Assembly (NCBI RefSeq): GCF_900103485.1 | Contig: NZ_FNHW01000001.1 | Coordinates: forward strand, 1,213,418-1,277,417 | Length of the DNA: 64,000 nucleotides | Direction: 5' to 3' | DNA from: Fictibacillus solisalsi | GTDB taxonomy: Bacteria > Bacillota > Bacilli > Bacillales > Fictibacillaceae | Shown: piece by piece, positions 44,737 through 50,071 of the stretch | How positions within the stretch are numbered: the first letter of the stretch is position 1 | Layout of the letters: each line of letters begins with the position of its first letter | Notes under the pieces: model-generated | Database searches by the model: none | Seen by the model: the letters and a program-made list of their open reading frames with translations, nothing else | What the model was told of the DNA's origin: nothing | Translations under genes and position numbers: made by a program

Positions 44737-44762
44737 AACGCCTCTTTGAGAGGCGTTTTTTT
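44735..44762. terminator. Bidirectional terminator between the MurE-like gene and dctB
   Basis: AAAACGCCTCT and AGAGGCGTTTT pair around a 3-base loop, followed by further T residues; it lies between convergent genes. Confidence 0.85.
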
Positions 44763-45817
44763 TACTGGTATTTATGCTGAAGATGCTCAATTTCATTGAT
44801 TAGTTTTTTTCCTGCCGCAGGTTCATACAGCTGGTATAGGGGATGCAGTTTTTTTATCCACTTCTTTTTCTCTTCTGCATTCAGTGTATGAATCTGAATA
44901 TCGGATTCTTTTTTGATCGATTTCAACTGTTTTTTATTCATGGAAATGTAATGTTTCTGGTTCCAGGTTACCGTTTCTTTAATTGCGTCGTGAATAATGG
45001 TTTGCACATTTCTTGGCAGTGAATTCCAGTAATCGTTGTTGATCAGAATTGCATAACCAAGGAAACCGTGATTACTGATCGTCATGTGATTTTGCACTTT
45101 ATAATATTTTTTGGAATAAATATTGGAAATTGTATTTTCTTCTCCATCCACTTCTCCGGATTCCAAACTTCTGTATGTCTCATTAAAATCCATCGGAACG
45201 CTTTGACTGCCAAGAAGATCGAACTGCTTCTTCAGGACCGAGCTCGACATAATCCTGAAATTACGCCCCTTAAAATCATCAGTCGATATGATGGCATGGT
45301 CTTTGTTGGTGATCTGCTTTAATCCGTTCACCCAGAACCCCAGCCCTTTAATGTTATGGCTGTTCAGCGAAGATAGCAGAGTCCTTCCGATTGTTCCGTC
45401 CAATCCTTCATTAATCGCCGCTTCAGTAGGGAATGCAAACGGAAGATCAAGAGCCTGCCATTTGGGCGAGATGCTACCCAGCTTTGAAGTGGCAGGAGCA
45501 ATCATCTGTACGTCTCCTTCCCAAAGAGCATGAAGTTCTTCCTTGTCTGAATAAAGGCTTCCATTTGGAAAGACCTCTACTTTAACTTTATGGTTTGATT
45601 TTTGGTCCACCAGATCAGCGAATTTTCGGGCTGCCAGTCCCTTCGGTGTATTTTCTGCGACCACATGACTAAATTTTATTACTATCTGCTCTTTAATTCC
45701 TTCCTGGTCATCATCAGATACCAGCTTTCGTTCTGAAAAATCAAAATGAAAACCTATATAAAATGAAAGCAGCAGGCCAGTGATAAGAAATAAGGCAATT
45801 CCTAAAAATGTTTTCAT
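44762..45817 (-). CDS. dctB: DctB-like TRAP-type C4-dicarboxylate-binding protein
   Basis: A 351-residue extracytoplasmic solute-binding protein of the DctP/TRAP family. It has an N-terminal hydrophobic anchor (FLGIALFLITGLLLSFYIG) without a lipobox Cys. Family motifs are IKFSHVVAENTPKGLAARKF near residue 47, VEVFPNGSLYSDKEEL, PFAFPTEAAI, FKGRNFRIMSS near residue 185, and VDGEENTISNI near 222. No TRAP membrane subunits (DctQ/DctM) are nearby. As in B. subtilis, where DctB helps the kinase DctS sense dicarboxylates, the gene adjoins dctS and is divergent from it here. It is probably a sensor component more than a transporter part. Confidence 0.9.
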   Translation of the reverse strand: MKTFLGIALFLITGLLLSFYIGFHFDFSERKLVSDDDQEGIKEQIVIKFSHVVAENTPKGLAARKFADLVDQKSNHKVKVEVFPNGSLYSDKEELHALWEGDVQMIAPATSKLGSISPKWQALDLPFAFPTEAAINEGLDGTIGRTLLSSLNSHNIKGLGFWVNGLKQITNKDHAIISTDDFKGRNFRIMSSSVLKKQFDLLGSQSVPMDFNETYRSLESGEVDGEENTISNIYSKKYYKVQNHMTISNHGFLGYAILINNDYWNSLPRNVQTIIHDAIKETVTWNQKHYISMNKKQLKSIKKESDIQIHTLNAEEKKKWIKKLHPLYQLYEPAAGKKLINEIEHLQHKYQ

Positions 45818-45937
45818 TTTATTCTTTTCTCCACGTTCTTTAATTTTCCATCAAGGCTTCTATTTTCTCTTTACAGTCTAGCATATCTTAAAAACCATGA
45901 TACAATGTTCTGTAGAATTTACGGAAGGAAGACGGTC

Positions 45938-47521
45938 ATGAATGTTCTAAAATTGCCCATCCGGTGGAAGATTATTTTTCTCTCTTTTGGAATCGTTCTC
46001 TTTTCCCTTTTGATTGGTGGAATTATTATCACTGGCAAAATCGTTGATATGAGGGAGGATGAGCTTGGAAAGAGGGGAATGATTACCGCCAGGACGGTGG
46101 CACAGCTGCCAGAAGTACAAAAACAAATCCAAAAAAAGAATGGTATGGCAGTCATTAACCCCATTGTGGAAAATATCCGCGTAATCAATAACACTGATTA
46201 TATTGTAGTTTTAAACATGGATGGCATCCGCTACTCCCATCCGGTTCAAAGCCTGGTCGGCACAACGTCTTCCGGTGAGGATGAGGGCCCTGCTTTCGCG
46301 GATCATACCTATCTTTCCAAAGCGAAAGGAGAACTTGGAATTGCTGTCCGGGCTTTTATGCCGATAAAAAATGAAAAGTTAGAACAGGTTGGTGTCGTGA
46401 TCGTCGGCAACATCCTTCCCGGTTACCTTGAAATTTTACAGGGATTGAAAGCACAAATTGCATTGATCATGTTCCTGACCCTTCTGTTTGGGCTTTTGGG
46501 TTCCTGGATGCTTGCACGGCATATTAAACAGCAGATGTTTCAACTCGAGCCCCATCAGATCGTGCGTATGTATGAAGAAAGCACTGCTGCGTTTCATGCC
46601 ATGCATGAAGGAGTAATAGCCATTGATATGAATGAGAAGATCACTATATTTAATGAAAGGGCGAAAGAGATCTTTAATGTGAGCGGCCATCTTCTGGGAA
46701 AACCGATACGGAGTGTTATTCGGGATACCCGTTTACCCGAGATTATAGAATATGGGAAAGCGGTGTTCAATCAAGAAATCAATGTGAGCGGAAACATCAT
46801 CATGAGCAACCGGATCCCCATTAAAGTGGACAAATCGGTAATAGGTGCAGTAGCGATTTTCCAAGATCGGACAGAAGTTGCAAAAATGGCAGAAGAGCTG
46901 ACTGGTGTAAAAGCATTTGTTGAAGCCCTTCGCATCCAAAATCATGAACATTTGAACAAATTGCATACGATTGCCGGGCTCATTCAGCTGGATAAAAAAA
47001 ATCAGGCACTGCAGTATGTGTTTGACATTACGGAACAACAGGAAAGCTTGACGCGGCTGGTTACAAAAAAAATCCGGAATGACAGTATTGCCGGGTTGCT
47101 GTTAAGCAAAGTGAGCAGAGGAAAAGAACTGAAAATCGAGGTCAATATTGACAGTCAAAGCCATCTCCAAAATCTTCCTCCTCACCTGAATGAGCATGAT
47201 TTTGTCATCATCCTCGGAAACCTGATTGAAAACTCATTTTATGCCTTGAATGAAATCGATACTTCACCGAAAAAAATTGACGTTAGTATCGAACAGGATA
47301 ATGACGTATGCGCGTTGCTTGTTGAAGACAACGGACCGGGTATTCCAGAGGAACTCCTTCCCTATATCTTTGAAAAAGGAATCACGACTAAAGGAGAAGA
47401 TGGACTCGGGATTGGGCTTTACCTTGTAAAGGATATCGTGAGCAAGGGAAAAGGGGAGATTTCTCTTTCAACTTTCCCGTACGGCGGTACCAGCTTTTAT
47501 ATCACATTTCCTATGAAATAA
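45938..47521 (+). CDS. dctS: Sensor histidine kinase of the CitA/DcuS family
   Basis: A 527-residue membrane kinase. Helix 1 is at about residues 9-30, the extracellular PAS-like sensor (residues 32-165) contains NTDYIVVLNMDGIRYSHP and the GTTSSGEDEGPAF loop, and helix 2 is at about 170-190. A cytoplasmic PAS follows (ITIFNERAKEIFNVSGHLLG), then the phosphoacceptor stretch LRIQNHEHLNKLHTIAGLIQL near residue 335, and a HATPase domain with NLIENSFYALNE, EDNGPGI and GLGIGLYLV. It should phosphorylate DctR in response to C4-dicarboxylates. ATG 45938 follows GGAAGGAAG. It is divergent from dctB and 12 bases ahead of dctR. Confidence 0.93.
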   Translation: MNVLKLPIRWKIIFLSFGIVLFSLLIGGIIITGKIVDMREDELGKRGMITARTVAQLPEVQKQIQKKNGMAVINPIVENIRVINNTDYIVVLNMDGIRYSHPVQSLVGTTSSGEDEGPAFADHTYLSKAKGELGIAVRAFMPIKNEKLEQVGVVIVGNILPGYLEILQGLKAQIALIMFLTLLFGLLGSWMLARHIKQQMFQLEPHQIVRMYEESTAAFHAMHEGVIAIDMNEKITIFNERAKEIFNVSGHLLGKPIRSVIRDTRLPEIIEYGKAVFNQEINVSGNIIMSNRIPIKVDKSVIGAVAIFQDRTEVAKMAEELTGVKAFVEALRIQNHEHLNKLHTIAGLIQLDKKNQALQYVFDITEQQESLTRLVTKKIRNDSIAGLLLSKVSRGKELKIEVNIDSQSHLQNLPPHLNEHDFVIILGNLIENSFYALNEIDTSPKKIDVSIEQDNDVCALLVEDNGPGIPEELLPYIFEKGITTKGEDGLGIGLYLVKDIVSKGKGEISLSTFPYGGTSFYITFPMK

Positions 47522-47533
47522 AGGAGAATTGCG

Positions 47534-48232
47534 ATGATTGAAAATAGCATTGACGTGTTGTTAATAGAGGATGATCCCATGGTTTTAGAAATTAACCGGG
47601 CATTTATTGAAAAGGTTTCCGGGTTCAAGGTGACGGGAATGGCCACAAATGGGGCGGAAGGGTTAAAACAGATCAAGAAACTGCAGCCAGATCTCGTCGT
47701 TCTTGATATCTATATGCCGAAGCGGGACGGAATTCATACCATCCACGAGATTCGAAAACACAAGTCCAAGGTGGATATTATCGTGATTTCTGCGGCAAAT
47801 GACCGGCAGACCATACAAACCATGCTGCAGCAGGGAGCGATAGATTATATCATTAAGCCTTTTAAATTTGAGAGAATCCAGCAAGCGCTTGAACGGTACA
47901 AGGAATTCAGATTGCAGCTAAATACGCAAGGAGAAATGTCACAAAAAGAGGTGGATGCTCTGCTGTCGGTAGCGACAGTTTCCGAACGGAAACAAGAAGA
48001 AATACCAAAAGGGCTGAGCCAAAATACACTCATGCAGATCATCGGTTTTTTGAAAGACCAATCCGGAGGAAAATCATCAGAAGAAGTAGCCGAAGGAGTC
48101 GGCATTGCACGGGTAACCGCCCGAAGGTATCTTGAATACCTGGAGAAAACGGGGGAAATTAAGCTGGATGTCCAATATGGAGGTGTGGGCAGGCCAATCA
48201 ACCGGTATTTAATGAAATACAAGGAGATTTAA
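47534..48232 (+). CDS. dctR: Response regulator of the CitB/DcuR family
   Basis: A 232-residue transcription activator. The receiver domain (1-125) has the acidic pocket IEDDPMV, the phosphorylated Asp in VLDIYMP (about D58), the switch residue in VISAAND and Lys in IIKPFKF. The C-terminal part (about 165-225) has a helix-turn-helix with SEEVAEGVGIARVTARRYLEYLE. It follows dctS after 12 bases behind AAAGGAGAATTG. The expected target is the promoter of dctP next door, where 9-base direct repeats are present. Confidence 0.93.
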   Translation: MIENSIDVLLIEDDPMVLEINRAFIEKVSGFKVTGMATNGAEGLKQIKKLQPDLVVLDIYMPKRDGIHTIHEIRKHKSKVDIIVISAANDRQTIQTMLQQGAIDYIIKPFKFERIQQALERYKEFRLQLNTQGEMSQKEVDALLSVATVSERKQEEIPKGLSQNTLMQIIGFLKDQSGGKSSEEVAEGVGIARVTARRYLEYLEKTGEIKLDVQYGGVGRPINRYLMKYKEI

Positions 48233-48237
48233 ACAGA

Positions 48238-48265
48238 GAAAGACCAAAAAGACCAAAAAGGACAA
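48238..48265 (+). promoter_or_regulatory. Tandem 9-base repeats upstream of dctP, possible DctR site
   Basis: Three near-identical units in a row, AAAGACCAA, AAAGACCAA and AAAGGACAA, begin right after the dctR stop codon. They lie about 25-55 bases ahead of a probable promoter for dctP, a suitable place for the DctR activator. Confidence 0.45.
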
Positions 48266-48292
48266 TATCACCTAAATATTCACTAAATTTTC

Positions 48293-48332
48293 AGAAAGCG
48301 TTATCATCGTTTTATCGGTGATAACGCTTTCA
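48293..48332 (+). promoter_or_regulatory. Paired cre-like sites forming a hairpin upstream of dctP
   Basis: TGATAACGCTTTCA (48319-48332) fits the CcpA cre consensus TGWNANCGNTNWCA at every position. AGAAAGCGTTATCA (48293-48306) fits with one mismatch. The two are inverted copies forming a 13-base perfect stem with a 12-base loop, followed by AGTTTTT, so the element may also end dctSR transcription. In B. subtilis dctP is under carbon catabolite repression. Confidence 0.7.
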
Positions 48333-48355
48333 GTTTTTCATAAGGAGGAAAAACC

Positions 48356-49627
48356 ATGAAACCATTATTCAAAAACCTGACCTTCCAAGTCATAATTGCC
48401 ATTATTCTTGGTATTACAGTAGGGCTTATTTGGCCGGATGCCGGTAAGCATATGAAACCGCTCGGTGATACATTTATCAATGCCGTAAAAATGGTGATCG
48501 CTCCGATTATCTTTCTTACCATTGTCTTAGGGATTGCGAAAATGGGAGACATGAAAAAAGTAGGAAAAGTCGGAGGAAAGGCTTTTATCTATTTTGAAGT
48601 GGTAACGACGTTTGCCCTGGTGATTGGCCTTATTGTTGTTAACATTATTAAGCCTGGGGCAGGACTGGACTTTGATAAGCTGCAAAAGGGGGATGTTTCC
48701 CAGTTCACTTCCGAAGGTGGAGAAGGGGGCATTAACTGGCTCGACTTTTTCACCCATATCGTTCCTAGCAACATGGTCGATGCGTTTGCAAAAGGTGATA
48801 TCCTGCAGGTCCTCTTCTTTTCCATTTTGTTTGGAGTGGGGTTAACCGCCTTAAGAGACAAAGGAAAGCCTGTTATTGAGTTCTTCGATAAACTGCTTAC
48901 GATTTTCTTTAATGTAGTTGGCTACATTATGAAAGCGGCACCTATTGGTGCTTTTGGCGCGATGGCGTTTACGATCGGTAATTTCGGACTTGCTTCTCTT
49001 CTCCCGCTTGGGAAATTAATGATTTCGGTGTACACCACCATGTTCCTGTTCGTTGTTGTGGTATTAAATATCATTTGTAAAATGTACGGCTTTAGCTTAT
49101 GGAAATACCTGAGGTACATTAAAGATGAAATCCTGATCGTTCTTGGAACAAGTTCATCAGAATCAGTGCTTCCGCGCATGATGAATAAAATGGAAAAATT
49201 CGGCTGTTCAAAATCCGTCGTGGGTCTTGTCATTCCAACAGGTTATTCGTTTAACCTGGATGGAACCTCCATCTATCTATCCATGGCTGTTGTTTTTCTG
49301 GCTCAAGTGTTTAATGTGGATTTAAGCCTGACCCAGCAATTAACCATCATTGCCGTTCTGATGCTTACTTCCAAAGGTGCTGCCGCTGTGACAGGAGGAG
49401 GATTTATTGTCCTTGCTTCCACACTTTCCGCCATGCAGGTCATTCCTGTTGAAGGGCTGGCATTGCTGCTTGGTGTTGACCGCTTTATGAGTGAAGCCCG
49501 TGCAATCGTGAACTTGATCGGAAATGGGATTGCTACGATTGTAGTTTCTAAAAGTGAGAAAGAGTTCGATGAGAAACAAAGCGAACGGGCGGTACTTGAC
49601 CTTGAAGCGGCAAGTAAACCCGCATAA
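48356..49627 (+). CDS. dctP: C4-dicarboxylate/proton or sodium symporter (DctA family)
   Basis: A 423-residue secondary transporter of the dicarboxylate/amino acid:cation symporter family, importing succinate, fumarate and malate. It has about eight membrane segments and two re-entrant loops. Signatures are [20 protein letters not shown] near residue 40, the serine-rich loop [14 protein letters not shown] near residue 263, the [13 protein letters not shown] motif near 298, and [19 protein letters not shown] near 340. ATG 48356 follows AAGGAGG. The B. subtilis name is dctP; other species call the family dctA. Expected control is activation by DctR and repression by CcpA. Confidence 0.95.
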
Positions 49628-49634
49628 CAAAAAA

Positions 49635-49658
49635 AGCGCCCTGCTGGCGCTTTTTTTG
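49635..49658. terminator. Terminator after dctP
   Basis: AGCGCC/GGCGCT with a 5-base loop, flanked by A and T runs, serves dctP and possibly the convergent small gene. Confidence 0.85.
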
Positions 49659-49661
49659 TTT

Positions 49662-49811
49662 CTATCTTCGTTGATTTTCTTCATCTTTTAAGCGGTTTTG
49701 TTCGTCCGCCAGACGATTTTTGTTTGCTGAATCGTCTGTAGGCTTCTGGTTGCCCTGTACATTCTTTTCAAATTCAAGAAGACCTTCTTTGTTATTATTT
49801 GAATCAGCCAT
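49662..49811 (-). CDS. Small charged protein of 49 residues
   Basis: ATG 49811 follows AAAGGGAG on the minus strand and opens a 49-codon frame ending at TAG. The protein is hydrophilic, rich in Asn, Glu, Lys and Gln (MADSNNNKEGLLEFEKN at the start, RLADEQNRLKDEENQRR at the end), and has no Cys or membrane segment. It is probably disordered or coiled. A sigma-B-like promoter reads into it. The combination of a clean ribosome binding site, a promoter and a terminator makes it a real gene despite its size. No family recognised. Confidence 0.7.
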   Translation of the reverse strand: MADSNNNKEGLLEFEKNVQGNQKPTDDSANKNRLADEQNRLKDEENQRR

Positions 49812-49847
49812 GATGAATCAGCTCCCTTTTTTTGATGTATAGTTTGT

Positions 49848-49898
49848 TTTCCCTGCAGCAGACGATTAAAACCGTTTAAATCATGATAAAAAGGGTAC
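49848..49898. promoter_or_regulatory. Divergent pair of sigma-B-like promoters
   Basis: Plus strand: GTTTAA (49874-49879), 13 bases, GGGTAC (49893-49898). Minus strand: GTTTTA (49872-49867), 13 bases, GGGAAA (49853-49848). Both fit GTTTWW-N12-14-GGGWAW closely. The two -35 elements are one base apart, and each promoter lies a suitable distance from the ribosome binding site of a tiny gene. Confidence 0.6.
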
Positions 49899-49927
49899 AG
49901 TATTTTTATCAACAGGGAGGGATGGAC

Positions 49928-50071
49928 ATGACTGAAAACAAGAACCAATCAAATAATGAGTCTGTAGAACAAAAAGAGAAGGAAACGAGACATCAGGATA
50001 TTGATCCTCAGCGCGATCCTGATAAATCCGAAAAAAGGGAAGAAGACAAAAATCCTGATGATTTCGAATAG
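49928..50071 (+). CDS. Small highly charged protein of 47 residues
   Basis: ATG 49928 is seven bases after AGGGAGG; an in-frame ATG at 49922 is too close. The protein is extremely hydrophilic with many Glu, Asp, Lys and Asn (MTENKNQSNNESVEQKEKE at the start, DPDKSEKREEDKNPDDFE at the end) and no hydrophobic core, so it is probably intrinsically disordered. A sigma-B-like promoter and a terminator bracket it. Similar composition is seen in stress and desiccation-related small proteins of Bacillus, but I recognise no family. Confidence 0.7.
   Translation: MTENKNQSNNESVEQKEKETRHQDIDPQRDPDKSEKREEDKNPDDFE

Follow-up and report, generated by a model that had tools for sequence, protein, structure and literature searches.

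We analyzed a 64,000-nucleotide stretch of DNA, referred to here as the window, from a Fictibacillus-related genome of 4.8 Mb in 14 contigs that contains a sigB cluster. Two short open reading frames diverge in this window between dctA, encoding a C4-dicarboxylate transporter (48356-49627, plus strand; Pfam and NCBIfam match), and a gene of the DUF6501 family (PF20111; 50176-50382, plus strand; Pfam match) that was used as an anchor of the locus. The minus-strand frame, P1 (49662-49811), encodes 49 amino acids from an ATG start codon and is preceded by a moderate ribosome-binding site, AGGGAGC, read from the sequence at about 49821-49827 on the same strand. The plus-strand frame, P2 (49928-50071), encodes 47 amino acids, also from ATG, and has a strong ribosome-binding site, GGGAGGG (49915-49921, plus strand), identified in the same way. 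A terminator scan found an intrinsic-terminator-like hairpin directly 3' of P2 (50070-50098, plus strand) and another terminator-like hairpin in the interval between dctA and the P1 stop codon (49626-49660), called on the plus strand only; in the sequence the latter has an A-run on one side and a T-run on the other and thus could serve the convergent transcripts of both dctA and P1. The dctA gene is a flank outside the stress unit and falls in a C4-dicarboxylate cluster (44762-49627) with genes for a DctP-type binding protein (minus strand), a DcuS/MalK-type kinase, and a response regulator.

Between the two frames lies a core of 51 bases (49848-49898) with one sigma-B-type promoter on each strand. 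The P1 promoter, GTTTTA-N13-GGGAAA (49848-49872, minus strand), was obtained by strict pattern matching and scoring, and 36 nt separate its -10 element from the start codon. The P2 promoter, GTTTAA-N13-GGGTAC (49874-49898, plus strand), was read from the sequence and scored, with the -10 element ending 29 nt before the start codon. Both spacers are 13 bases long, and a single base (49873) separates the -35 hexamers; the original prediction of a 51-base segment with paired sigma-B-like promoters, 13-base spacers, and nearly touching -35 elements is therefore exact in the sequence. The sigma-B consensus is given as KTTTW-N12-17-GGGWAW for the Bacillales and as GTTTAA-N15(+/-2)-GGGTAT for B. subtilis (PMC9847131). 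The minus-strand site agrees with the Bacillales form at every position. In the plus-strand site, the -35 element is identical to that of the B. subtilis form, the spacer is 13, and five of six bases of the -10 element agree; it falls outside the strict pattern because its last -10 base departs, as it does from both consensus forms. A sigma-A-like match, TTGATA-N18-TATCAT (49912-49883, minus strand), faces P1, overlaps the plus-strand sigma-B promoter, and may provide an additional housekeeping promoter for P1.

A consensus match alone is weak evidence for a promoter. The strict pattern GTTTWW-N12-14-GGGWAW has two matches in the window, compared to 0.81 expected, and 18 of 100 shuffled sequences reach this number; genome-wide it has 103 matches, compared to 75 for the backward control. 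The only other strict match in the window is GTTTTTCGTTTTTAATAACAGGGTAA at 904-929 on the plus strand. Moreover, good-looking sites can be inactive, as described for the B. subtilis promoters PygaO (GTTTAT-N14-GGGAAT) and PykaA, which lacked a clear sigma-B dependence (PMC9847131). A search of the whole genome with the divergent pattern AAAC-N0-25-GTTT-N14-16-GGGWA gave 75 matches versus 63 for its control, and inspection of these 75 by eye revealed mutual matches on both strands at only two loci, the P1/P2 core and one other. The second mutual pair (C6:334631-334695, about 1232-1296 of locus L164) separates a Transgly_assoc gene (PF04226) from a YtxH-like gene, the latter assigned at 34.7 bits, below the Pfam cut-off of 37.5. 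Both of these kinds of gene are sigma-B targets in B. subtilis, and this second pair serves as an unplanned positive control. The ywzA gene belongs to the Transgly_assoc family. In B. subtilis, the expression of ywzA is sigma-B-dependent (PMC9847131).

Profile searches of 397 genomes of the order, representing 135 genera, identified P2 homologues in 53 genomes and 19 genera, and a single-sequence search found P2 in 10 of 120 genomes, the source genome included. The 20 loci that were named include members of Peribacillus, Domibacillus, Metabacillus, Neobacillus, Mesobacillus, and Jeotgalibacillus. The family shares the core motif S-x-EQ-x-x-K...D[IV][DE]PQR; in an alignment of 22 chosen members, S12, E14, Q15, K18, D24, P27, and R29 are invariant (S-x-EQ-x-x-K...DIEPQR), and some members of the wider family, such as those of genomes G135 and G042, depart at motif residues. 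Within the genus, P2 is present in F. enclensis (G004), F. fluitans (G003), and F. terranigra (G005), and the single-sequence search did not find it in three of the six other genus genomes (G001, G002, and G006). The gene and its promoter are intact in all four same-genus genomes that have P2, counting the source genome, and P2 is under purifying selection. Its codons show 10 synonymous and five non-synonymous differences from F. fluitans (dN 0.044, dS 0.76), one synonymous and two non-synonymous differences from F. enclensis, and 15 synonymous and 12 non-synonymous differences from F. terranigra in the last 43 codons. No common P2 neighbour stood out across genera in the neighbourhoods of the fetched loci; a PNPOx-type gene lies near three P2 homologues (L123, L125, and L131).

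The P1 family was detected by profile search in 28 of the 397 genomes and 12 of the 135 genera, and by single-sequence search in five of 120 genomes, again including the source genome. Its C-terminal motif, RxPDQQNRLKDQENxR[KR] in an alignment of 20 chosen members, probably forms a C-terminal helix. In this alignment D36, K42, and E45 are invariant, and R33, P35, Q38, N39, and R40 are nearly so. The copy of the motif in the window is RLADEQNRLKDEENQRR, where A replaces the nearly invariant P; in terms of the core motif PDQQNRLKDQEN, the P1 of the window has ADEQNRLKDEEN at this place. Homologues, for which a search had been proposed along with the original prediction, were thus recovered for both frames.

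The SigB protein of the source genome was identified with high scores (TIGR02941, 422 bits versus a cut-off of 315), and its gene belongs to an rsbU-V-W-sigB-X type cluster, in which V, W, and X were named by position and Pfam class. A GTTTAG-N14-GGGTAA site is located 41 nt before rsbV; a strict-pattern site at C5:54201-54226 was rejected as the rsbV promoter, since it overlaps the rsbV ribosome-binding site. By comparison of the lists by eye, SigB was matched with an E-value of 1e-60 or better in every one of the 53 genomes with P2 (in G136 at only 3e-63), compared to 348 of the 397 genomes overall. A SigB match was also present in 26 of the 28 P1 genomes. The two exceptions are G100 and G202, the weak P1 profile matches of which look spurious.

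To score upstream regions we used a scheme of our own, uncalibrated, that takes the best GTTTWW, N12-15, GGGWAW site within 150 nt upstream of the start codon (maximum 20, threshold 17.5). Sites that reach the threshold precede 40 of the 58 P2 loci (39 of 57 without the duplicate contig) and 20 of the 29 P1 loci, and the distance from the end of the -10 element to the start codon is 22-41 nt for 36 of the 40 P2 sites and for all 20 P1 sites. At least one site was found in 13 of the 18 genera examined for P2 and in nine of the 11 examined for P1. Random windows in the same loci reached the threshold at a rate of ~5% (57 of 1160 for P2 loci and 29 of 580 for P1 loci); the controls upstream of open reading frames of at least 150 amino acids and upstream of the neighbouring DUF6501 family gave 10 of 114 and one of 30, respectively. 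No site at the threshold was found for 18 of the 58 P2 loci and nine of the 29 P1 loci, including five of the six P2 loci of genus g43 (Jeotgalibacillus) and three of the four of genus g44. Several loci of genera g91, g130, and g133 have a near-miss, GTTTA.-N13-14-GGAAAT, at the usual distance. The P2 count leaves out three of the 53 profile genomes (G043, G203, and G334) and adds four loci from the single-sequence search and four of the 20 named loci, with L119 being the same contig as L077; the P1 count leaves out the G100 match, which lies inside a 718-aa frame, and adds F. enclensis. Start codons were chosen by script, and those of G309, G172, G111, and perhaps G398 look wrong and were counted as misses. 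The recurrence of sigma-B-type sites upstream of both families raises the core above chance. The sigma-B-like promoters of the original prediction therefore hold up as a type that recurs across genera before both families in genomes with SigB, and the predicted sigma-B control of both families is well supported by the genome comparisons.

The annotation of both frames as 49- and 47-residue proteins of no recognizable family was borne out. Neither P1 and P2 taken singly nor the 20 P1 and 22 P2 family members gave a Pfam or NCBIfam match above the cut-off, the output being weak noise only, and neither protein had a PDB match at an E-value of 0.1. A comparison of the two profiles showed P1 and P2 to be unrelated. 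A text search of the literature for the motif strings DIEPQRD and PDQQNRLKD returned no papers, and neither family was the subject of a paper among the matches listed in article-text searches on hydrophilins, on the sigma factors of Fictibacillus, and on small or disordered proteins under sigma-B. We concluded that P1 and P2 represent two scattered, undescribed families of small proteins that, judging by their predicted promoters, are very probably members of the general stress regulon.

Both proteins are strongly hydrophilic, as had been claimed, with hydrophilicity indices of 1.97 for P1 and 2.61 for P2. They have no cysteine and a single aromatic residue apiece, and a charge-hydropathy plot places both well within the disordered region. 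The AlphaFold models consist of isolated helices and are of modest confidence (pLDDT 64.7 and pTM 0.23 for P1; pLDDT 70.6 and pTM 0.22 for P2), and such models prove neither disorder nor fold. By their composition, P1 and P2 are probably disordered.

The reading that we favor, with somewhat better than even confidence in it as a whole, is that P1 and P2 are two unrelated SigB-induced small disordered proteins that are expressed from their own promoters and act by motif docking. General stress would free SigB, which would then read both promoters outward and give two monocistronic messages, each from its own sigma-B promoter, and the two proteins would be made mainly upon SigB activation. Each protein would dock its conserved short motif, S-x-EQ...DIEPQR in P2 and PDQQNRLKDQEN (here ADEQNRLKDEEN) in P1, on a partner protein. 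The two genes would have come to stand back to back in one Fictibacillus lineage, where the short intergenic core would fire both ways under stress. Stress induction, disorder in vivo, and motif docking are what we infer for P1 and P2 from these data. Docking on a partner appears the most likely mode of action and is favored over generic filling because short conserved motifs stand in a variable background.

The main rival explanation, which we regard as unlikely, is that P1 and P2 are generic hydrophilin-like protectants, that is, charged disordered filler that would shield membranes or enzymes when cells are dry, salty, or cold, controlled by sigma-B like GsiB and acting without a specific partner. 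The high hydrophilicity, the lack of cysteine, the single aromatic residue, and the position on the charge-hydropathy plot would all suit such a role, as would the KGG-repeat (GsiB-type) gene found ~1.6 kb downstream of the P2 homologue L121. Hydrophilins are defined by a hydrophilicity index above 1 and a glycine content above 6%. P1 and P2 lie well above the first value; however, their glycine contents of 4.1% and 0%, respectively, are under the second. No LEA or KGG match was obtained among the 20 P1 and 22 P2 family members, and strongly conserved motifs are unexpected in a filler. Minor small acid-soluble spore proteins (SASPs, Tlp) are small, charged, and numerous in the Bacillales, and resemble P1 and P2 in size and charge. 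Unlike them, the 20 and 22 family members match no such Pfam or NCBIfam model, and the predicted promoters of P1 and P2 are of the sigma-B type, in contrast to the forespore type of SASPs. GsiB and other KGG-repeat stress proteins (PF10685) are unstructured and share with P1 and P2 the hydrophilic character and the sigma-B control that is predicted for P1 and P2, whereas P1 and P2 have no KGG repeats, little or no glycine, and no Pfam match. The gsiB gene is listed with a sigma-B promoter (PMC9847131).

A closer parallel for docking by a tiny stress protein, compared here by description, is provided by SR7P of B. subtilis, which has 39 amino acids, is expressed from a sigma-B-dependent promoter, and binds enolase, thereby raising the activity of RNase Y (PMC8152036). 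Cells produce SR7P in response to ethanol, salt, manganese, heat, and acid, and a short conserved stretch is taken as its contact surface (PMC8152036). It is thus similar to P1 and P2 in its tiny size, in its sigma-B promoter, where those of P1 and P2 are of the sigma-B type, and in having a short conserved stretch. In contrast to P1 and P2, SR7P is encoded on an antisense RNA, has an additional constitutive sigma-A transcript, and is described with 10 homologues, all in Bacillus (PMC8152036). A bolder extension of the docking reading, which we offer as speculation with a low chance of being right, is that P1 and P2 are families of SigB-induced micro-regulators that each use their conserved motif to dock on a conserved machine, for example, the stressosome or the network of RNA degradation, whose activity they would adjust during stress, with the Fictibacillus pair being a natural bidirectional stress cassette.

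Comparison with the sister species bears on whether P1 is still a working gene in this lineage. In F. enclensis, the P1 frame is only 40 codons long; the F. fluitans copy has a deleted start and a promoter spacing reduced from 13 to 6; and in F. terranigra, P1 was not found by sequence or profile searches. Over the 40 codons shared with F. enclensis, the P1 of the window shows no synonymous and six non-synonymous differences. Because of this pattern and of the motif departure at the nearly invariant P, P1 may be under relaxed selection. These same observations, together with its truncation, start deletion, and absence in the relatives, would favor an explanation by which P2 is the working sigma-B stress gene and P1 is here an outgoing relic, leaving a single active product. 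We consider this improbable, since the P1 frame of the window is open over all 49 codons, keeps the larger part of the C-terminal motif, and is still preceded by its promoter and by a ribosome-binding site of moderate strength.

The original prediction further described the divergent pair as a small stress module of disordered proteins and asked whether the arrangement is conserved. The two families occur together in 21 of the 397 genomes, and eight of the 135 genera hold both, with 12 holding P1 and 19 holding P2, a co-occurrence at the genus level with a Fisher p of 1.2e-5, phylogeny not being corrected for. In each of the 20 other genomes with both families, however, P1 and P2 either fall on separate contigs or are separated by about 548 kb or more. 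In profile searches of the fetched loci, three of the 58 P2 loci had P1 as a neighbour (those of the source genome and F. enclensis, and that of F. fluitans with its P1 remnant), and two of the 29 P1 loci had P2 as a neighbour (the source genome and F. enclensis), all within one genus. Co-occurrence without linkage fits two independent members of one regulon, and by these comparisons the back-to-back pairing appears to be a local arrangement of one Fictibacillus lineage; a conserved module is not supported. Of the proposed stress module, the probable disorder of the proteins, the existence of homologues for both frames, and the recurring sigma-B-type promoters stand, and the two-gene module does not. 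That P1 and P2 nevertheless form one functional two-gene stress module with a shared bidirectional promoter could be argued from their divergent adjacency in the source genome and F. enclensis and from the co-occurrence of the families; given their lack of linkage elsewhere, the rarity of adjacency, and the decay of P1 in F. fluitans and F. enclensis, where P2 persists, we find this very unlikely. Least probable is that the sigma-B-like sites arose by chance, with both genes being constitutive or transcribed from some other promoter. Although the genome shows no more than a slight enrichment of the bare pattern and a sigma-A-like match faces P1, sites recur at similar distances before both families in many genera, compared to the low rates before DUF6501 genes and in random windows.

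The two families are relevant to a regulon that is still incompletely characterized: ~18% of the known and predicted members of the B. subtilis SigB regulon are of unknown function (PMC9847131). Proteins of less than 50 amino acids are easily overlooked in annotation, and the P1 and P2 families, which lack a Pfam or NCBIfam model but have sigma-B-type promoters in many genera, are concrete candidates for this regulon. Their conserved motifs offer an immediate handle for pull-downs, and the 51-base core is predicted to be a compact natural bidirectional stress promoter.

Two minor observations concern the surroundings of the homologues in other genera. In genus g65, an rsbT-type gene lies near the P1 homologue in eight of nine loci (L089-L093 and L095-L097), often with a VOC-type gene; the rsbT-type assignment is based on Pfam STAS and HATPase matches for L093 only and on sequence likeness for the other loci. 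As a lead only, this neighbour possibly links P1 to the stressosome pathway. In genus g43, the regions upstream of P2 in five loci (L066, L068, L070, L071, and L072) share, by eye, the plus-strand sequence TTCCC[TC]AA...TAAC; on the opposite strand, this could be a divergent site of the sigma-B type. In L070 and L071, this putative opposite-strand site faces a 59-aa open reading frame with a CxxC pair.
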